This document shows positions 3,116 through 30,865 of a stretch of DNA of 64,000 bases, in pieces. The notes under the pieces are model-generated. The model did not search any database. It had not been told where the DNA came from and saw nothing but the letters and a program-made list of their open reading frames with translations. How positions within the stretch are numbered: position 1 is the stretch's first letter; each line of letters begins with the position of its first letter. The position numbers were made by a program, and so were the translations under genes. The DNA comes from Citricoccus sp. CH26A. GTDB lineage: Bacteria; Actinomycetota; Actinomycetes; Actinomycetales; Micrococcaceae. Where the stretch lies: positions 1 through 64,000 of the forward strand of contig NZ_AFXQ01000005.1 in the NCBI RefSeq assembly GCF_000224415.1, given 5' to 3'.

Positions 3116-3640
3116 CCTTCACCCTCGTCGAAGCGGGGTCTCCTTCGCCCGACTTCCCCGGATCGATTCTGTCGGATCAGCACCACGCCCTCCGCTGGGC
3201 GGAGAGCAGTAGCCTCTGCCCATCGCCCGAGCAAGAACGTCCCGTCAACCAACCCCCACCGGGCACCCCACACGTGACCTGTACGAACAACACTTCCCCT
3301 CCCGAGGTGTCCCGTTAGGCCCCGACCGGTGAACCCTCCCGATGACGGGGCGGCATACGAAGCACGCCCGAACAGGCCGTCCTGACGCGCCGAGTCATGC
3401 CCATCGCAGTGACTCCAGCCGCGCGCTCCCCGCCGCCATACCCCCTCAAACGACGTTCGACTCCTGAGGAGGGGCTCTGGGTCCCGGCAAACGGTGCTTG
3501 TCGTGACTGTTGGCGCGAAGTGAGGGTGGCGGGGGTGAACTACGGAGACGAGCGGTCAGGTCTGGCAGGTGTTGATAGGCGGCGCATGCGATCGGCTCAG
3601 CCGCGTTTATTGGCGACCCCGTCGTAGTCCTGGACGTCAT
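3116..3640. other. gene-free stretch between regulator and MHS carrier
   Basis: About 525 bases with no supported gene. Open frames here lack ribosome sites and have Arg/Pro/Ser-rich translations. The left part should hold the promoter of the minus-strand AraC-family gene. Nothing else stands out until the strong hairpin at 3641. Confidence 0.4.
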
Positions 3641-22832: not shown

Positions 22833-24305
22833 TCAGGACACGCGCGTGGGCTCCCTCGACTCCTGGTCCTGCAGGTAGGCGTCCCGCTCCTCCAGCTCCC
22901 GGCGGACCTGGGCCTCGTGCAGGGCGCGCGTGGCGGCGTGCTCCGGGTTGCGGCGCAGCACGAGGTACCCGATGCCGAGAGCGACGAACCACAGCGGGGT
23001 GACGACCAGGGCCGCCAGGGTGTCGGCCTGGGTGGTCAGCGCCCAGATGATGAACGCGAAGAAGGCCAGCACCACGTAGGGCATGAACGTCCCACCGGGC
23101 ATCTTGAACGCGCTCACCGCGTGCAGCTGCGGGCGGCGACGGCGGTAGACGAGATAGCTGACGAGGATGATCGACCATACGAACATGAAGCAGAGCGCGG
23201 ACACCGAGGTCACCAGGGTGAAGGCCTCCGCGACACCACCCTCCGCGTAGAGCAGGGCCACGCCGGCCAGCAGGAACATGCAGGAGAACAGCAGCGCGTT
23301 CTTCGGGACCTTCCGGGAGGACAGCCGGCCAAAGGCCTTGGGGGCATCACCCTCCTGGGCCAGGCCGTAGACCATGCGCGAGGTCGAGTAGATCCCCGAG
23401 TTCGCCGAGGACGTCGCGGAGGTCAGGACGATGAAGTTCACGACCCCGGCCGCGCCGACCAGCCCGGCCAGGGCGAACATGCCCACGAACGGGGACTCCT
23501 CCGCGCTGTAGGCGGTCCAGGGCTTCACGGCCATCAGGATGATGAGGGCACCCACATAGAACAGCAGGATGCGCACCGGGATGGAGTTGATCGCCCGGGG
23601 CAGGTTCTTCTCCGGGTCCTTGGCCTCGGCGGCGGTGGTGCCGACCAGCTCGATGCCGACGAAGGCGAAGACCGCGATCTGGAACCCGGCGACGAAGCCC
23701 ATGAAACCGGTGGGGAACATCCCGCCCTCGGTCCACAGGTTGGAGAACGCCGCCCGGGTGCCGTCGGACTCGAAGCCGGTGATGATCATGCCCAGGCCCA
23801 CGACGATCAGCGCCAGGATGGCCACGATCTTGATCAGGGCGAACCAGAACTCGGTCTCGCCGAACGCCTTCACCGAGGGCAGGTTCAGCCCGACCAGGAG
23901 GACGATGCAGGCCACCGCGGGGATCCAGAGCGGCAGGTCCCCCCACCAGAAGGACACGTAGTGGGCAATCGCGACGACGTCGGCGATCCCGGTGACCACC
24001 CAGCAGAACCAGTAGGTCCACCCGGTGAAGAAGGCCGCCCAGGGCCCGAGAAGGTCCCCGGCGAAGTCGGAGAAGTTCTTGTAGTCCGTGTTGCTCAGCA
24101 GCAGCTCACCCATGGCGCGCATGACGAAGAACAGCATGAAGCCGATGATCATGTAGACGAAGATCACCGAGGGTCCGGCGACCGCGATGGTCTTGCCCGA
24201 GCCCATGAACAGGCCGGTGCCGATCGCGCCTCCGATGGCGATCAGCTGGATGTGACGGTTGGACAATGCCCGTTCGAGGTGGGGCGCTTGCGGGTTTTCG
24301 CTCAT
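22833..24305 (-). CDS. cycA: CycA-type D-serine/D-alanine/glycine permease
   Basis: A 490-residue, 12-helix amino acid/polyamine/organocation permease. It follows E. coli CycA very closely along its length: LSNRHIQLIAIGGAIGTGLF, FFVMRAMGELLLSN, GWTYWFCWVVTGIADVVAI, AFVGIELVGTTAAEAKDPEK and TSATSSANSGIYSTSRM. CycA imports glycine, D- and L-alanine and D-serine by proton symport. The gene lies 103 bases downstream of serine dehydratase on the same strand, behind a tandem glycine riboswitch, which supports glycine or serine as cargo. The last 35 residues form a charged cytoplasmic tail. Confidence 0.92.
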   Translation of the reverse strand: MSENPQAPHLERALSNRHIQLIAIGGAIGTGLFMGSGKTIAVAGPSVIFVYMIIGFMLFFVMRAMGELLLSNTDYKNFSDFAGDLLGPWAAFFTGWTYWFCWVVTGIADVVAIAHYVSFWWGDLPLWIPAVACIVLLVGLNLPSVKAFGETEFWFALIKIVAILALIVVGLGMIITGFESDGTRAAFSNLWTEGGMFPTGFMGFVAGFQIAVFAFVGIELVGTTAAEAKDPEKNLPRAINSIPVRILLFYVGALIILMAVKPWTAYSAEESPFVGMFALAGLVGAAGVVNFIVLTSATSSANSGIYSTSRMVYGLAQEGDAPKAFGRLSSRKVPKNALLFSCMFLLAGVALLYAEGGVAEAFTLVTSVSALCFMFVWSIILVSYLVYRRRRPQLHAVSAFKMPGGTFMPYVVLAFFAFIIWALTTQADTLAALVVTPLWFVALGIGYLVLRRNPEHAATRALHEAQVRRELEERDAYLQDQESREPTRVS

Positions 24306-24408: not shown

Positions 24409-25839
24409 TCAGCATTCGACGACGTTGACGGCCAGTCCGCCCAGGGCCGTCTCCTTGTACTTGTGGCTCATGTCCTTGCCGGTCTCACGCATGGTGACGA
24501 TGACCTCGTCCAGGCTGACCCGGTGGGTGCCGTCACCCCACATCGCCATCTTGGCCGCGTTGATCGCCTTGGCCGCGGCGATCGCGTTGCGCTCGATGCA
24601 GGGGATCTGCACGAGTCCGCCGATGGGGTCACAGGTCAGGCCGAGGTTGTGCTCCATGGCGATCTCCGCGGCGTTCTCCACGTGGGCGGGTGAACCACCG
24701 AGGACCTCCGCCAGGCCGGCGGCCGCCATGGAGGAGGCCGAACCGACCTCACCCTGGCAGCCGACCTCGGCGCCCGAGATGGAGGCCTGCTCCTTGTACA
24801 GCACACCCACCGCCGCGGCGGCCAGGAGGAACCGGTTGACGATCTGCTCCCGCGCGACGCGGAGCGCCTCGGGCCCCCGGGCGGCCGCGTCGACGGCGGC
24901 CGGGGAGTAGTGGGTGGCGTAGAACAGCACTGCCGGGATGATGCCGGCGGCCCCGTTGGTGGGGGCGGTGACGACCCGGCCGCCCGAGGCGTTCTCCTCG
25001 TTGACCGCCAGCGCGACCAGGTTGACCCACTCCTGCCAGAACTTCGGGTCCCGGTCCGGGTCCTCTTCGCGCAGGCGGCGGTGCCACTCCGGGGCCCGGC
25101 GGGCGACGTTCAGTCCACCCGGCAGCAGGCCGGTGCGCCGCAGGCTCGAGTCCTTGCACTCCTCCATCACGGTCCAGATGTGCAGCAGCCCGGCGCGGAT
25201 CTCGTCCTCGGTCCGCCGGGTCCGCTCGTTGGCCAGCATGACCTCGCTGATGTCCATCCCGGTGGCGTGGCAGTGCTCCAGGAGTTGCTGGGCGGTGCGG
25301 AACGGGTGGGGCACCGTGGCCCCGGACGCCTCCTGCTGGTCCCCGCCGGCGTCCTCCTCGTCCTCGCGGACGATGAAACCGCCGCCCACGGAGAACCAGG
25401 TCTCATCCGCCAGGACGGAGCCCTCGGCGTCCAGCGCCTGGAACCGCATGCCGTTGGTGTGCCGATCGAGCACGGTCAGCGGGTGCTGGACCATGTCCTC
25501 CACCCCGTAGGGCAGGTCCTTGCCCGCCCCGAGGGCGGAGCACAGGCGCAGGGTCCCGGTGGCGTCGATGTCGGCCAGCCGCTCCTCGACCTGGTCGGGC
25601 AGGATGAGCTCCGGATCGTAGCCCTCCAGCCCGAGCAGGATCGCGGTGAAGGTGCCGTGGCCGCGACCGGTGGCCGCAAGGGATCCGTAGATATCCAAGC
25701 GCAGGTCGGCGGTGCGCTCCAGGAGGTCCCCGGCGACCAGGGTCTCGGCGAACCGGCGCGCGGCCCGCATGGGACCGACGGTGTGCGAACTGGAGGGACC
25801 GATGCCGACGGTGAACAGGTCGAAGACGCTGATGCTCAT
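24409..25839 (-). CDS. sdaA: L-serine ammonia-lyase (iron-sulfur serine dehydratase)
   Basis: A 476-residue single-chain serine dehydratase of the iron-sulfur type. The beta-domain opening [21 protein letters not shown] is intact, as is the catalytic half with [14 protein letters not shown]. The three cluster cysteines are in [22 protein letters not shown] and QIPCIERN; the serine C-terminal tail VNVVEC ends in Cys as in E. coli SdaA. It converts L-serine to pyruvate and ammonia using a [4Fe-4S] cluster as Lewis acid. It is second in a minus-strand unit led by a tandem glycine riboswitch, with a 45-codon ORF upstream and a CycA-type permease downstream. Confidence 0.95.
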
Positions 25840-25855
25840 GGTGTTGTCCCGGGCC

Positions 25856-25993
25856 TCAGCGCCCGGCTCCGATCGGGTCGAGGTCCGGGTGGGCAGCGGT
25901 CACGGCCGCGTACCGGCCCGGCCCGACCACACGGTCGGTGAGGGTGGCGTCGGGCAGGTCGAAGGCGTTCCGAAGAACGGGGGTGATCGGCAT
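25856..25993 (-). CDS. 45-residue ORF between glycine riboswitch and sdaA
   Basis: A short frame ([18 protein letters not shown], then [20 protein letters not shown]) with a GGAG site 7 bases before its ATG and strongly G/C-ending codons, ending 16 bases before sdaA. I recognise no family. It may be a small regulatory protein, a translated leader that passes the riboswitch decision to sdaA by coupled translation, or the stub of a deleted glycine-cleavage gene. Codon bias and ribosome site make real translation likely; its role is unknown. Confidence 0.55.
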
Positions 25994-26054
25994 GAGGGAA
26001 CTCCAGGCTTCTGCGCGGTGTCCGCGCGCTGTCCGTGTGTTCCTCCCCGATCTG

Positions 26055-26240
26055 TAGCTCGGCCTGAGAGTTTCCATCCCACCCGGGCGGGACTTGCTCC
26101 TTCGGCGAACGCGGAGGATGCCGCGCTACTTTCCAGATGTGCCTCGATGCGGCGGTACGGGGGCCTGAGAGTTTCCTGGGGAGGATTTGCTCCTACGGCG
26201 CCCGACCGGTGCTGCTGGACGGGACTCTCCCGCCGCACTC
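26055..26240 (-). ncRNA. tandem glycine riboswitch
   Basis: Read on the minus strand, two aptamers follow one another. The first opens with GGCGGGAGAG, then GCCGTAGGAGCAAAT and closes with AACTCTCAGGCC. The second has GCCGAAGGAGCAAGT and closes with AACTCTCAGGCC. The paired (G)GAGCAA and CTCTCAGGC elements repeated in tandem are diagnostic of the glycine (gcvT) riboswitch. It lies in the leader of the 45-codon ORF, sdaA and cycA, so glycine should control serine breakdown and glycine/serine uptake. In most bacteria this switch controls glycine-cleavage genes. Confidence 0.93.
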
Positions 26241-26269
26241 AACGGCTCTTCGGTTGTGACTGCGCTCAC

Positions 26270-26298
26270 ACCTTAGCGGTGCGCCGCGTTTCTGGCAA
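26270..26298 (-). promoter_or_regulatory. promoter of the riboswitch-sdaA-cycA unit
   Basis: On the minus strand TTGCCA (complement of 26293-26298) and TAAGGT (complement of 26270-26275) are separated by exactly 17 bases. The predicted transcript would begin near 26262, some 20 bases before the first riboswitch aptamer. Confidence 0.7.
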
Positions 26299-26315
26299 CA
26301 CGGCCGTGACGTTCC

Positions 26316-26840
26316 GTGACGATCGGATCCGCCAACGAGGTGGACGAGTTCGCCCGCGGGTTCGGCGTGGAGATCAACCCGGACCGCACCGACATCACCG
26401 GACTGGCCGTCGGCGACTGCTTCAACGGGTTCGAGGACGTGGGCAATGCCGTGACCACCGTGGACTGCACCGAGGAACACGACTCCGAGTTGCTCCACGT
26501 GGTCACCGTGCCCGAGTCCGTGAACGAGTTCCCCGGCGAGCACCGGGAACACCTCTGGCTCGAACCCGAGGACGCATGCCTGGGGACGGCGTTCGAGGAC
26601 TACGTCGGGGAGCCGTACGAGTCCTCAGGCTGGGACGTATACACGTTCCGACCCACGGAACGAGCCTGGGCCGAGGGAGACCGCACCATCCAGTGCGTGG
26701 TCTACAGCCTGGAGGGCGAGTCCTGGACGGGCAGCCCCTCCACGGGCGACGCCGAGGTCATCCCCTTCGTGGGACCGGACGATGCGCCCTTCGAGGCACC
26801 GGCGACCACGTCCCCGGACACCGACCCCGTCGAGAGCTGA
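26316..26840 (+). CDS. septum-formation-domain protein, apparently lacking its membrane anchor
   Basis: A 174-residue acidic protein. VGDCFNGFEDVGNAVTTVDC and TEEHDSELLHVVTVPES, with later Cys residues (EDACLG, IQCVVYS), match the extracellular septum-formation domain of actinobacterial membrane or secreted proteins, where paired cysteines form disulfides. The first possible start (GTG 26316) comes right after an in-frame stop at 26307, and no signal peptide or helix precedes the domain. There is also no ribosome site. Either the N-terminal anchor has been lost, or the true start and anchor were removed when the divergent riboswitch promoter region formed. Function unknown. Confidence 0.6.
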   Translation: MTIGSANEVDEFARGFGVEINPDRTDITGLAVGDCFNGFEDVGNAVTTVDCTEEHDSELLHVVTVPESVNEFPGEHREHLWLEPEDACLGTAFEDYVGEPYESSGWDVYTFRPTERAWAEGDRTIQCVVYSLEGESWTGSPSTGDAEVIPFVGPDDAPFEAPATTSPDTDPVES

Positions 26841-26902
26841 CCCGCCCACCACGGCGGCCGGAGCCGGCTCGCCGACCGCGCGAGCGGTCGACGACGGCGG
26901 CG

Positions 26903-28618
26903 CTACCGGGACCGCAGTGCGGGTGCATGGCTCCGCTCGGGCGCGGAGTCACCCGCGGGCTCGTGGTTCGAGCCGGGCATGACGATCGAGAGGCTGCCCG
27001 TGGCCAGCGGTTCGGACTCCACCGTCCGCTCGATCCGGGTGGCCAGCGGCTTCTCCGTGACGAACACCAGCAGGACGGCGGCGATCAGGCCCAGCGGCGC
27101 GATCCACAGGAAGATCGGGGTCAGGGCGTCCGAGTAGGCGGTGATCACCAGGTCGTGCAGCGGATCCGGCAGGGCGGACACCGCGGCCGGGGTCAACGAC
27201 TCCGCACTGCCCATCTGGCCTGCACCCGCCGAGGGCAGTCGCTCGACCAGCAGCCCGGCCAGCCGCGAGGCGAACAGGCTGCCGACCAGGGAGGAGCCCA
27301 GGGTGGCGCCGATCTGGCGGAAGTAGTTGTTGGAGGCCGTGGCGGTGCCGACCATGGTGACGGGGAAGGTGTTCTGCACGATCAGCACGAGGTTCTGCAT
27401 GGACAGGCCGAGGCCCATCCCCAGCAGGGCCATGTAGCCGCAGGCCATCCAGAGGGGCTGGTGCGGGTCCATCAGGGACAGCAGGACCAGGGCGACGGCG
27501 ATGACCAGCGCGCCCACCACGGGGTACCACTTGTACTTGCCGTACCGGGAGATCAACGCCCCGGACGCCGTCGAGGTGAGCAGCATGGCACCCATCATGG
27601 GGATCATCGCCAGGCCGGCGACGGAAGCGTCCAGGCCGAAGGACATCTGCAGGTACGTGGGCATGTACCCGAGGGCGCCGAACATGGCCACGCCGATGAA
27701 CAGGCCGGCCACGGTGGTCAGCACGAAGTTGGTCTCGCGGAACAGGGACATCGGGATCAGGGGCTCGGCGGTGCGCCGTTCGACCAGCACGAAGACGACG
27801 CCGGCCACGACGGTCACGGCGATCAGGCCCAGGATGACCGGGTCGGACCACGCGTAGGTGCCACCGCCCCAGGTGGTGACCAGCACCAGGGCGGTGGTGG
27901 CGACGGCGATCAGGGACATCCCGTACCAGTCCAGGGTCGGGCGACCGTGGCGGTGGCGGGGCAGCTTGAGGAAGAAGATCGCGGCCAACAGGGCCAGCAC
28001 GCCGATCGGGATGTTGATCCAGAAGGCCCAGCGCCAGCCGGGTCCGTCCGTGAACCACCCGCCGAGCAGGGGGCCCACCACGGAGGCCAGGGCGAACACC
28101 CCGCCCATGACGCCCATGTACTTGCCGCGCTCCCGGGCGGGGACCACGTCGGCAATGGCCGCCTGGGCCAGGATCATCAGTCCACCACCGCCGATGCCCT
28201 GGATGACGCGGGACAGGATCAGCATGCCCATGTCCCCGGCCAGGCCGCCGACCACGGAGCCAAGCATGAACAGGCTGATCGCGGCGATGAGCAGCGGCCT
28301 GCGGCCGATCTGGTCACCGACCTTGCCGTAGATCGGCATGACGATGGTGGTGGCCAGGATGTAGGCGGTGATGACCCACACCATCTGGCTCACCCCGTTG
28401 AGCTCGCCCACGATCGTGGGCAGGGCCGTGGCGAAGACCGTCTGGTTCAGCGCGGCCAGCAGCATCGCCAGCATCAGGCCGACGAAGAGCGGGACGAGCG
28501 TCCCCGGGGGGATCGTCGAATCGGCCTCGGCCCGGTTCGGGGACGCACCGGAGGCGCCGGCCTTCGTCGAGGCGGTGGCGGTGGGACTTCGACGGCGGTC
28601 GCGGGGGGTCTGGGTCAT
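26903..28618 (-). CDS. DHA2-type (EmrB/QacA) multidrug MFS exporter
   Basis: A 571-residue, 14-helix drug:H+ antiporter-2 protein. Signatures: LNQTVFATALPTIVGEL in helix 1, GKVGDQIGRRPLL (motif A), RVIQGIGGGGLM, and motif C VFALASVVGPLLGG. The first 40 residues and last 45 are polar. The start ATG at 28618 overlaps the stop of the upstream TetR gene by 4 bases (ATGA) and has an AGGAAG site, so translation is coupled. The longer open frame reaching 28798 runs inside the TetR gene and is rejected. It most likely exports a toxic hydrophobic compound whose presence is sensed by the TetR partner. Confidence 0.92.
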   Translation of the reverse strand: MTQTPRDRRRSPTATASTKAGASGASPNRAEADSTIPPGTLVPLFVGLMLAMLLAALNQTVFATALPTIVGELNGVSQMVWVITAYILATTIVMPIYGKVGDQIGRRPLLIAAISLFMLGSVVGGLAGDMGMLILSRVIQGIGGGGLMILAQAAIADVVPARERGKYMGVMGGVFALASVVGPLLGGWFTDGPGWRWAFWINIPIGVLALLAAIFFLKLPRHRHGRPTLDWYGMSLIAVATTALVLVTTWGGGTYAWSDPVILGLIAVTVVAGVVFVLVERRTAEPLIPMSLFRETNFVLTTVAGLFIGVAMFGALGYMPTYLQMSFGLDASVAGLAMIPMMGAMLLTSTASGALISRYGKYKWYPVVGALVIAVALVLLSLMDPHQPLWMACGYMALLGMGLGLSMQNLVLIVQNTFPVTMVGTATASNNYFRQIGATLGSSLVGSLFASRLAGLLVERLPSAGAGQMGSAESLTPAAVSALPDPLHDLVITAYSDALTPIFLWIAPLGLIAAVLLVFVTEKPLATRIERTVESEPLATGSLSIVMPGSNHEPAGDSAPERSHAPALRSR

Positions 28619-29238
28619 GAAAGCTTCCTGTAGAGGTCTTGGAACAGTTCGATCGCGTCGAGGACGGCCTCCGGCTCCAGCTGTCCGGTGGGCAGCGGGC
28701 CCTGGGCCATGATCACGTAGCGCAACGGGGTGCCCGCCGCGGTGGTCAGCATCCGGGCGGTGTCCTCGACCCCGTGCCCGTGCAGTCCCTGCGACCACTC
28801 CGGATGGCCGGCCATCGCCGCGGCGAGCGCGCGTTGGACGAGGTCCTCACACTCCAGGGACAGTTCCCGGCGCCGGATGAGCAGGTGCGGGAACTTGGCG
28901 AACAACCGGCCCCGGCGCTCGACGTCCCCCTCGGCGTAGGCGCTGCGGCTGACGCCGAGCATCAGCTCCGTGGTGCGGCGCAGCAGGCCGTCCCCGTCCA
29001 GGAATCCCTCGGGCAGTTCCGGGGGCTGGGGGCTGCGGACGCCGAGGATGGCGTCCTCCTTGGTGGGGAAGTAGTTGAAGAAGGTCCGCTGGGACACTCC
29101 GGCCTCGCTGGCGATGGCCTCGACGGTCACGCAGGGGATGTCCTCGTCCAGGGCCAGTCCGGCGGCTGCGTCGTGGATGAGATTCCACGTCTCGAGCTTT
29201 TTGCGCTCGCGCAGGGAGAGGGTATCCGCAGGGGTCAT
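28615..29238 (-). CDS. TetR-family repressor of the DHA2 exporter
   Basis: A 207-residue regulator. The N-terminal helix-turn-helix covers about residues 8-58 (LRERKKLETWNLIHDAA, then IASEAGVSQRTFFNYFPTKED). The C-terminal part is the variable ligand-binding and dimer domain. It is the first gene of a two-gene unit with the exporter (4-base overlap). A near-perfect palindrome at 29257-29281, just upstream, is the probable operator for autorepression. Start 29238 chosen; the frame is open to 29274 but would run into the operator and promoter. Confidence 0.9.
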   Translation of the reverse strand: MTPADTLSLRERKKLETWNLIHDAAAGLALDEDIPCVTVEAIASEAGVSQRTFFNYFPTKEDAILGVRSPQPPELPEGFLDGDGLLRRTTELMLGVSRSAYAEGDVERRGRLFAKFPHLLIRRRELSLECEDLVQRALAAAMAGHPEWSQGLHGHGVEDTARMLTTAAGTPLRYVIMAQGPLPTGQLEPEAVLDAIELFQDLYRKLS

Positions 29239-29256
29239 GGACCATATTTTTGCACG

Positions 29257-29281
29257 ACTGCATGTTGTGCACAACTGCAGT
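29257..29281. promoter_or_regulatory. TetR operator (palindrome)
   Basis: The centre GTTGTGCACAAC (29264-29275) is a perfect 12-base palindrome. It is flanked by ACTGCA on the left and TGCAGT on the right, with one extra T breaking the left arm. It lies 19-43 bases before the TetR start and overlaps the probable promoter, the usual place for a repressor site. Confidence 0.8.
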
Positions 29282-29339
29282 GATCTGGCCCACGCTGCCC
29301 GTCACGGCGCGCACGCGGACCCCTCCGACGGCCGAAGGC

Positions 29340-29389
29340 CAAAGGATGACCCGGAACACCCCGCATCGGGCGTTCCGGGTCATCCTTTG
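29340..29389 (-). terminator. strong hairpin after the hydroxycarboxylate carrier
   Basis: Perfect 18-bp arms at 29340-29357 (CAAAGGATGACCCGGAAC) and 29372-29389, with a further CCCG/CGGG pair inside the loop. It lies 24 bases past the end of the minus-strand carrier. On that strand the stem begins and ends in A/T-rich bases. Confidence 0.85.
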
Positions 29390-29413
29390 ACCTCTGGATA
29401 CTCGGGGTGAGGA

Positions 29414-30865
29414 TCAGCCGACCAGCAGCGGCACCATCAGCGAGGTGACGAACAGCACCAGGGTGCCGCCGATGCGGTTGGTGATGGCCGCGAACGGCAT
29501 GAGGTGCATGCGCTCGGATGCGCTGAGGACGGAGACGTCGCCGGATCCGCCGGTGTCCGCCATGACCAGGCCGGGCACGATCGCCGACTCCACGAAGTTG
29601 AACTTCACCAGCCAGCCGATGACGCCGGCGGAGAGCCCGGCCACGAGCACGCACAGGAACGTCAGGACGATGAAGGACGGATCGGCCAGGGAGACGAGGA
29701 CCTCGTCGATCTTGATGTAGGTCAGGGAGACCCCCACGAGCAGGGCCGGGACCAGGACGGCGTTGATCAGCTCTCCCCAGTCGGTGGCGGAGGCCTCGAG
29801 GTCCTTCGGCAGCCACCCGGTCAGCTTCAGGACCACCATGATGATGATCGCCCAGGCGTAGGGATGCAGGAACTCCAGGTACGCGCCCAGCAGTTCACCG
29901 ACCACGAAGATCACCGCGGCGAACAGAAGGCCCTTGCCGAGCGCGATGTACGTGGAGGTGTCGGCCTTCTTCGGCATCGACAGCTCGCCGCGCGTGCCCT
30001 GGACGCGCATCAGGTCGCCGTTGCCGCTGAAGCCCAGGAACAAGGTCGGCCGGTTCTTGCCGATGCCGTTGAGCAGCCCGGCGATGATGATGCAGAAGAC
30101 GTTGGCCAGCACGACGGCGGACATCAGGTCGCCCATGAACGCGGAGGCGTCCTGGCCGGTGCGGGAGGCGTACATCTCGGACATGGGCAGGGCGCCCAGG
30201 CCGAGGCCGCCGGCCATGATCGGCGCGGCCACCAGCAGGATGCCCTCGATGAACCCCCTGCCGAACAGCAGGGACACCAGCCCGATCACCACGAACGTGG
30301 CCACCATGGTGCCCACCACGGGCACGGCGAACCGCGGGCCGGCCTTGACCAGCAGTGCGCGCGGCATGCCGAGGATGGAACCGGCGATGATCGCCATGAC
30401 GAAGAAGTCCAGGAAACCCTGCTCGTCGATGAAGGTGCCGGCCACGGTGATGATCGGTTCCGGGATGGCACCGAAGTAGGCCAGCGTGGCGGGGGCGAAG
30501 GTGCAGAGGATGGTCGGCAGGCCGTAGTCCCGGATCAGGGGGACCCGGTTGCCGAGCCAGATGAACAACCCGCCCAGCAGAATGGTCACCGCGAAGCCGG
30601 AGAGCATGGACGGTGCCAGGACCCCGGTGGCGGCGGCCGTGAGCACGACGCCGGCCATCACCAGGTAGAGCGCGATCGGCACGCTGGCGATCCGTTTCCA
30701 TGACGCCCCCGCGTAGTGGACACCCGGGCGGCCGTCGACGTCGTTGGCGACAGGGTGGCCCAGGCCGCCCTCGGACGCGGGATCGGTCCCGGCAGTGAGC
30801 TCCTGCTCGATCGCCTCGCGATCGCCGTGAGACTCCGTGGTCTCGTCGGTGGAGGTGGTGGACAT
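29414..30865 (-). CDS. 2-hydroxycarboxylate transporter (CitS/MleP family)
   Basis: A 483-residue polytopic carrier of the 2HCT family. Both re-entrant-loop signatures are present: PIMAGGLGLGALPMSEMYAS in the first half and ADTGGSGDVSVLSASERM in the second, followed by FAAITNRIGGTLVLF with the substrate-binding Arg. About 60 polar residues precede the first helix. Known members use sodium or protons to import citrate, malate or lactate, all of which carry a 2-hydroxy-acid group. It is the last gene downstream of a CoA-transferase and a lyase, so citramalate or a related 2-hydroxy acid is the likely cargo. A strong hairpin follows. Confidence 0.9.
   Translation of the reverse strand: MSTTSTDETTESHGDREAIEQELTAGTDPASEGGLGHPVANDVDGRPGVHYAGASWKRIASVPIALYLVMAGVVLTAAATGVLAPSMLSGFAVTILLGGLFIWLGNRVPLIRDYGLPTILCTFAPATLAYFGAIPEPIITVAGTFIDEQGFLDFFVMAIIAGSILGMPRALLVKAGPRFAVPVVGTMVATFVVIGLVSLLFGRGFIEGILLVAAPIMAGGLGLGALPMSEMYASRTGQDASAFMGDLMSAVVLANVFCIIIAGLLNGIGKNRPTLFLGFSGNGDLMRVQGTRGELSMPKKADTSTYIALGKGLLFAAVIFVVGELLGAYLEFLHPYAWAIIIMVVLKLTGWLPKDLEASATDWGELINAVLVPALLVGVSLTYIKIDEVLVSLADPSFIVLTFLCVLVAGLSAGVIGWLVKFNFVESAIVPGLVMADTGGSGDVSVLSASERMHLMPFAAITNRIGGTLVLFVTSLMVPLLVG

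Follow-up and report, generated by a model that had tools for sequence, protein, structure and literature searches.

What is a tandem glycine riboswitch doing in front of a serine dehydratase gene and a permease gene, with a 45-codon open reading frame (ORF) between switch and genes? This arrangement lies in a 64,000-nt stretch of Citricoccus sp. CH26A DNA, which was analysed as a whole and is referred to as the window. The probable answer is that the locus is a worn-down gcvP-gcvT-gcvH-glyA-sdaA-cycA operon, in which the control unit survived and the genes from gcvP to glyA were lost, leaving the first codons of gcvP as the beginning of a 45-codon ORF in front of sdaA; this fossil ORF would relay the switch to sdaA. 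Several elements of this account can be read from the sequence itself: a glycine switch is present, 28 codons stem from gcvP, relatives have the operon order, a genome of the same genus has an intermediate locus, and a block of ~280 nt is shared with other loci; the regulatory steps are proposed on top of these. In the following, C19, C36, C50, C56 and C65 denote contigs of the window's own genome (G000), G numbers such as G007 denote other genomes and L numbers denote loci.

Layout of the locus

On the minus strand, a promoter-like site is followed by a palindrome, two glycine aptamers, the leader, the ORF, 16 nt, sdaA, 103 nt and cycA. Both aptamers, aptamer 1 at 26143-26242 (-) and aptamer 2 at 26042-26146 (-), score above the RF00504 gathering score of 32 (64.6 bits, E 4e-11, and 52.8 bits, E 1.1e-10, the latter with the stretch searched alone), and by sequence they form a tandem glycine riboswitch. 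The window-wide Rfam search returned aptamer 1 alone, while aptamer 2 was found when searched separately; its 4-nt overlap with aptamer 1 and its lower score appear to be the reason. Further downstream lie the predicted expression platform at 25985-26052 (-), a predicted fold that includes a hairpin at 26027-26013; the Shine-Dalgarno sequence GGAG of the ORF at 26001-26004 (-); the 45-codon ORF at 25856-25993 (-), with its ATG at 25993, its stop ending at 25856 and codons 1-28 at 25993-25910; sdaA at 24409-25839 (-), which encodes an L-serine ammonia-lyase of the one-chain type (TIGR00720, 645 bits, cut-off 345); and a gene for a cycA-type D-serine/D-alanine/glycine permease at 22833-24305 (-) (NF008272, 754 bits, cut-off 732). 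The first-pass annotation had described a tandem glycine riboswitch ahead of ORF, sdaA and cycA, and the matches to Rfam, TIGR00720 and NF008272 place all parts where it had put them. The closest named sdaA locus, 95% identical, is found on a contig of Citricoccus sp. WCRC_4 (L008); it is treated as one with the sdaA locus of G006, sdaA being at the same place.

A promoter with 17-base spacing had also been proposed. The hexamers are readable as TTGCCA-N17-TAAGGT at 26270-26298 (-), with the -35 element at 26298-26293 and the -10 element at 26275-26270, but no promoter came out of a strict scan of 25300-29800 for the sigma-70 consensus. By the consensus of actinobacterial promoters the site is plausible; its counterpart in L008 reads TTGCCA-N17-TAGGGT. 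A scan of the leader found no intrinsic terminator. Between sdaA and cycA, another promoter-like sequence, CTGAGA-N16-GATAAT, is present at 24412-24385 (-) (9/12, shuffles mean 0.1), and cycA may thus have its own transcription start too. At 26316-26872 (~557 nt), the window carries an ORF of the septum-formation type, whose match to PF13845 is confined to the C-terminal part of that family; this stretch is missing from L008, where its two flanks lie ~30 nt apart.

Between promoter and aptamers lies a CRP/GlxR-type palindrome that the first-pass annotation did not mention, TGTGAGCGCAGTCACA at 26255-26270 (no strand assigned), which overlaps the last base of the -10 hexamer. The CRP/GlxR consensus is TGTGA-N6-TCACA, and this is its sole perfect match in the window; in the 3.47-Mb genome, perfect matches occur at 9 places (0 for the reversed-pattern control), two of which, in the window and on C36, precede glycine switches. 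Among 59 parsed leaders (75 given, 4 dropped beforehand), 20 carry the palindrome at 9 or 10 of 10 positions; it is present (at least 9/10) in all 8 leaders of the window's clade in the switch tree described below and in 0 of the genus's 8 gcvP1 leaders. C65 carries a gene for a CRP homologue, whose closest matches in the PDB are regulators of the CRP/FNR family such as 3mzh, 3d0s (M. tuberculosis CRP) and 4byy (C. glutamicum GlxR). Having a matching site at its promoter, and with a CRP homologue encoded in the same genome, the locus shows the sequence features of a CRP/GlxR-controlled promoter, and such control is putative; the position of the palindrome over the -10 hexamer suggests repression. 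This suggests that a cAMP-type regulator and the glycine switch control the locus together.

Operon remnants in front of sdaA

In related genomes, sdaA typically has a different neighbourhood. Among the best 80 related sdaA loci of a longer list, with upstream genes judged within the fetched flank, 65 have gcvP/gcvT/gcvH or glyA upstream of sdaA; the other 15 comprise eight with the switch pattern within 600 nt upstream, four with neither and three with too little upstream sequence. In the window, no gcv or glyA gene lies between switch and sdaA, and the 45-codon ORF is all that is found there. An intermediate layout exists in G007, a genome of the same genus, which has the switch, a 46-codon ORF starting MTITSLRP, gcvH, glyA, sdaA and cycA in this order; the start of its ORF is gcvP-like (12/15 bases). 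As read from its gene order, the G007 locus has lost gcvP and gcvT and kept gcvH and glyA, and a further step of erosion seems to be represented by the window and L008. The window locus would then be derived from an actinobacterial gcv-glyA-sdaA operon under a glycine switch without being a member of that group. The initial statement that the glycine-cleavage system does not follow the switch is correct for the genes now found there, but it misses the gcvP-gcvT-gcvH-glyA-sdaA operon from which the middle has been removed.

Several irregular loci were encountered among the relatives. In L060 (Arthrobacter Leaf337), the start of sdaA is repeated and joined by an N, probably an assembly fault, and the same is probable for contig C221 of G006 (L172), a mirror-image gcv-glyA-sdaA contig. 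In L074 (Herbiconiux daphne), the sdaA gene behind a glycine switch starts at 3501 with ATC where ATG is expected; the gene may use a rare start codon or begin elsewhere, or the sequence may be wrong here.

The origin of the ORF can be traced within the same genome, in which gcvP is present twice. One copy, gcvP1, lies on C50 and has a switch of its own in front; the other, gcvP2, is part of gcvP2-gcvT2-gcvH2 on the 4.6-kb contig C19, whose sequence starts within a switch. C19 could be a contaminant. A single DNA alignment joins leader and ORF of the window to leader and start of gcvP2. It scores 158, whereas 200 plain shuffles reach 48 at most, and it has two gaps of one base each in the leader, the first 27 codons being ungapped; the ORF alone scores 60 (shuffle maximum 44). 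A stricter control was an ungapped comparison from the ATG with 6,470 open starts in stretches of the own genome (the window and six loci). Here, gcvP2 ranked first for the window ORF, with 39/60 and 54/84 bases agreeing (runner-up 35 and 45), and also for the L008/G006 ORF (39 and 52; runner-up 35 and 45). The gcvP2 motif ADRHIGPG appears in the window ORF as TDRVVGPG.

As a protein, the ORF resembles GcvP no more than it resembles chance hits: in tblastn with the ORF, the own GcvP start ranked under several chance hits, and the case for a gcvP origin therefore rests on DNA. A protein search with the ORF against 99 genomes, the own one included, gave matches at E up to 0.1 in 25, with only the own genome and G006 below 0.01, and neither Pfam nor NCBIfam returned a family at E up to 1. 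The ORF had first been described as having no known relatives, a description that the top rank of the gcvP2 start among 6,470 overturns. On the strength of the DNA sequence, codons 1-28 derive from the decayed 5' end of gcvP and the ORF is a gcvP fossil. Similarity to gcvP2 fades after ~28 codons, and the source of the later codons is uncertain. The tail of glyA was tried as a source of the 3' part, by protein HMM (17/500 and 11/500 shuffles equally good) and by DNA (4/300 and 9/300 shuffles equally good); the outcome is suggestive, and this origin is not claimed.

Expression platform and use of the ORF

In the predicted fold, the 3' strand of P1 of aptamer 2, GAUCGG (26052-26047), pairs with codons 2-3 of the ORF, CCGAUC (25990-25985), and GGAAC (26043-26039) pairs with GUUCC (26001-25997) beside the ribosome site. 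From the P1 3' strand onward, this closed fold has a predicted energy of -31.0 kcal/mol; the AUG is predicted to be unpaired in it (0.97) and the ribosome site to be partly paired. Since P1 of aptamer 2 and the closed fold share bases, the two would be mutually exclusive. When the 12 coding bases were shuffled, 1/100 shuffles were as stable in the window, 2/100 in L008 (G006) and 5/100 in gcvP2; this fraction was 0.05 or less in 6 of the 37 leaders folded, which had been chosen from 54. The 55 parsed leaders (20 others could not be parsed, 4 were dropped beforehand) include 28 with a complete stem of the GGAAC/GUUCC type; its covariation is not above that of shuffles (272/1000 equally good), and in the window the stem alone is not significant (p 0.47). 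Judging from these predicted folds, translational control is likely, and because of the role of gcv the switch would be ON in glycine.

These elements could control the locus in the following manner: A CRP/GlxR homologue on the palindrome would limit transcription by its position over the -10 hexamer. Without glycine, the 3' strand of P1 would be engaged with codons 2-3 and GGAAC would pair beside the ribosome site, so that translation is held down. Glycine would favour P1 and open the start of the ORF. Ribosomes ending the ORF may then restart 16 nt further on at sdaA, and the mRNA preserved by translation would also serve cycA. The ORF peptide itself would have no function, and only its start and stop would matter.

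The spacing of ORF and sdaA bears on the restart step and fits a hand-over of the regulated start like that shown for uPPE2 (see below). In eight loci leading from a switch to sdaA, the first ORF stops 16, 16 and 12 nt before sdaA, overlaps it by 10 and 4 nt or, in three (L010, L050 and L076), is in frame with it, sdaA of L010 having its own ribosome site as well; the 12-nt gap, in L060, was measured to the first of the two repeated sdaA starts. The ninth such locus, L074, has no ORF between switch and sdaA. In L086 and L087 (Microbacterium), a tandem glycine switch is followed by an ORF of 15 or 18 codons, with an overlap of 10 or 4 nt between it and the sdaA start, and as a coupling layout this is, on sequence grounds, clearer than that of the window. 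The window's ORF stop and sdaA start are separated by a 16-nt gap without overlap, unlike in an upstream-ORF relay of the uPPE2 kind. Coupling is not general, since the gene behind the first ORF has its own ribosome site in G007, L198 and L203, where 45, 100 and 5 nt, respectively, separate the two. A missing Shine-Dalgarno sequence at sdaA was considered as an argument for coupling and dropped, the relatives being alike: the energy of the ribosome site is -3.7 compared with a median of -3.9 in 62 relatives. Coupling of the switch to sdaA via the fossil ORF ranks as the likeliest use of the ORF, with about even chances on mixed evidence.

The peptide shows little sign of being selected. Between window and L008, 19 of the 45 codons differ, 3 of them silently and 16 with a change of amino acid; compared with this one close relative, dN/dS amounts to ~1.8 for the ORF (0.222/0.126) versus 0.13 for sdaA (0.024/0.190). 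An in-frame 6-nt difference in L008 leaves the frame intact, and start, stop and 16-nt junction are identical. The peptide thus drifts without purifying selection, while start and stop may not be free to do so. Codon bias, initially taken as a sign of a real gene, is not supported in that role by a dN/dS of ~1.8 against one close relative, and of the conservation of the ORF, the lack of which had been named beforehand as refuting, the start has kept its part and the peptide has not. It is very improbable that the ORF codes for a small protein with a function in glycine/serine metabolism: its open frame, its good ribosome site and the frame kept through the 6-nt difference would fit, but so high a share of amino acid changes (16/19 differing codons) does not, nor do the single other genome with a match below E 0.01 (G006, among 99 with the own one included) and the lack of a Pfam or NCBIfam family match. 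Hardly credible at all is an independent recruitment, in which a glycine switch was placed before sdaA and the likeness of ORF and gcvP arose by chance. It would account for the fading of the similarity after ~28 codons and for a 3' part without proven source, but not for gcvP2 being first of 6,470 starts, for leader and ORF aligning with gcvP2 in one alignment or for the intermediate layout in G007.

A more serious contender, possible though somewhat doubtful, accepts the fossil and takes it for a passive remnant, with sdaA starting on its own ribosome site and the switch acting on the whole mRNA (e.g. via Rho or decay). The free drift of the ORF (dN/dS ~1.8) would be expected of a remnant, as would an sdaA ribosome site about as strong as the relatives' median (-3.7 vs -3.9) and the uncoupled first ORFs of G007 and L198; moreover, reading frames stay open by chance in GC-rich DNA. 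The junctions argue against it: at five loci with a switch before sdaA, among which are two related pairs, the end of the ORF lies no more than 16 nt ahead of the sdaA start or overlaps it, in three further loci the ORF is in frame with sdaA, and window and L008 agree in every base of start, stop and 16-nt junction. The relay through the fossil ORF is retained as the preferred reading.

Shared control block and known systems

The control unit of the window recurs elsewhere. Homologous blocks of 267 to 306 nt, with 81 to 84% identity, are found on C36, in G003, at two loci of G007 and in a Kocuria MAG; their 5' edge coincides with the palindrome or precedes it by up to 9 nt (in the Kocuria MAG, it lies 23 nt after the palindrome's first base), and their end lies from 4 nt upstream to 14 nt downstream of the start codon's first base. 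This block of ~280 nt, comprising palindrome, aptamers, ribosome site and start, elsewhere precedes cycA, gcvH or an uncharacterised gene. In a tree of 59 switches and 213 columns, with bootstrap not settled and gcvP2 left out as only the end of its switch is present, the window falls into an 8-row clade (98/98) that holds no gcvP row and otherwise consists of L008 sdaA, C36, C76 of G006, G003, the gcvH-glyA-sdaA-cycA and cycA loci of G007 and sdaA of the Kocuria MAG. The gcvP1 switches of the genus, including that of C50, form a separate clade (98/85). Such a family of switch copies within one genome makes direct comparison possible.

The first gene behind the switch is gcvP at 34 of 51 loci (window and L008 not among them), cycA at 5, gcvH at 2, gcvT at 1, an SdaC-type transporter gene at 3, that of a C36-type protein at 3 and another gene at 3; at 17 order-level loci (two repeats dropped), it is gcvP at 12, gcvT at 3, cycA at 1 and none of the queries at 1. 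In six pairs of recipient gene and gcvP start, 9 to 12 of the first 15 coding bases agree, compared with 4 to 9 of 15 in a control of six unrelated starts against four gcvP starts; L198 and L203 have no gcvP-like first codons (4/15 bases). The cycA gene of G007 begins MTTTQARPASET, the gcvP2 counterpart being MTITPARPTAAE, and cycA of L189 and L213 begins MTIH. A tentative interpretation is that the ~280-nt cassette has been copied around the genomes of the genus and re-wires genes by handing over a regulated start codon, the first gcvP codons travelling along since the P1 3' strand has codons 2-3 as its pairing partner. Hand-over might take two routes, in-frame fusion (cycA of G007; the gene of C36, C76 and G003) or a short coupling ORF (sdaA of the window).

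Glycine switches were also seen in front of other genes. On C36 (L119), C76 of G006 (L171) and C26 of G003 (L179), a tandem switch with a CRP-type palindrome precedes the gene of a protein of 114 residues or slightly more (MTNARA...), which has no match in Pfam and in NCBIfam only a weak AmaP hit (E 0.14, C36 protein). On C56 (L117), in G007 (L169) and on C149 of G006 (L173), a tandem switch stands directly before a serine/threonine transporter of the SdaC/stp kind; that of C56 reaches 449 bits with TIGR00814, under the cut-off of 526. A DUF5058 membrane protein, perhaps an unrecognised transporter of glycine or a relative, follows a glycine switch in L184 (G008) and L200 (G023), and a single glycine aptamer lies upstream of a methylenetetrahydrofolate reductase-like gene in L216 (G034 C45:39092).

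An orphan leader ORF thus becomes a readable fossil, and a testable rule can be formulated: to be transferred to another gene, a translation-acting riboswitch has to bring its start codon along. Past operon surgery would consequently be recognisable by short ORFs or unusual N-termini right after such switches.

Among known systems, the riboswitches of the glycine cleavage system of Streptomyces griseus (Tezuka and Ohnishi 2014) reportedly exert, by the title of that work, activating control in an actinobacterium; their target genes differ from those of the window. Another published glycine-switch sdaA is alike in having sdaA under the switch, with no short ORF described in the available part of that source and no cycA in its main text. 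A limited literature search returned nothing that joins glycine riboswitch, serine dehydratase and Actinobacteria, or glycine riboswitch, cycA and serine, and a limited search on duplicated or fused riboswitch leaders returned none on the point by title and abstract start; PMC1262725 contains no glycine, gcv or serine term.

According to the portion of PMC12452182 at hand, a Streptomyces gcvT-gcvH-glyA-sdhA operon, sdhA being a serine dehydratase gene, is preceded by adjacent glycine aptamers, and translational platforms are said to be preferred in Actinomycetota. An sdaA gene under a glycine switch is thus not new in itself. The window shares with that operon, as excerpted there, the adjacent glycine aptamers in front of an operon with an L-serine dehydratase; it differs in that gcv and glyA are absent, a gcvP 5' remnant is present, cycA follows and a CRP-type palindrome precedes the switch. 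The relay itself may be compared with uPPE2, which is under the B12 riboswitch of M. tuberculosis ppe2 and in which, in the extract of PMC11260477 consulted, stops placed 3 or 7 codons early lowered expression gradually. Both loci have a switch-controlled short ORF before the regulated gene and are candidates for termination-reinitiation. Measured against that extract, the window locus would respond to glycine instead of B12, is presumed to be ON instead of OFF and has a 16-nt gap instead of an AUGA overlap, and its ORF is traceable to a lost gene.
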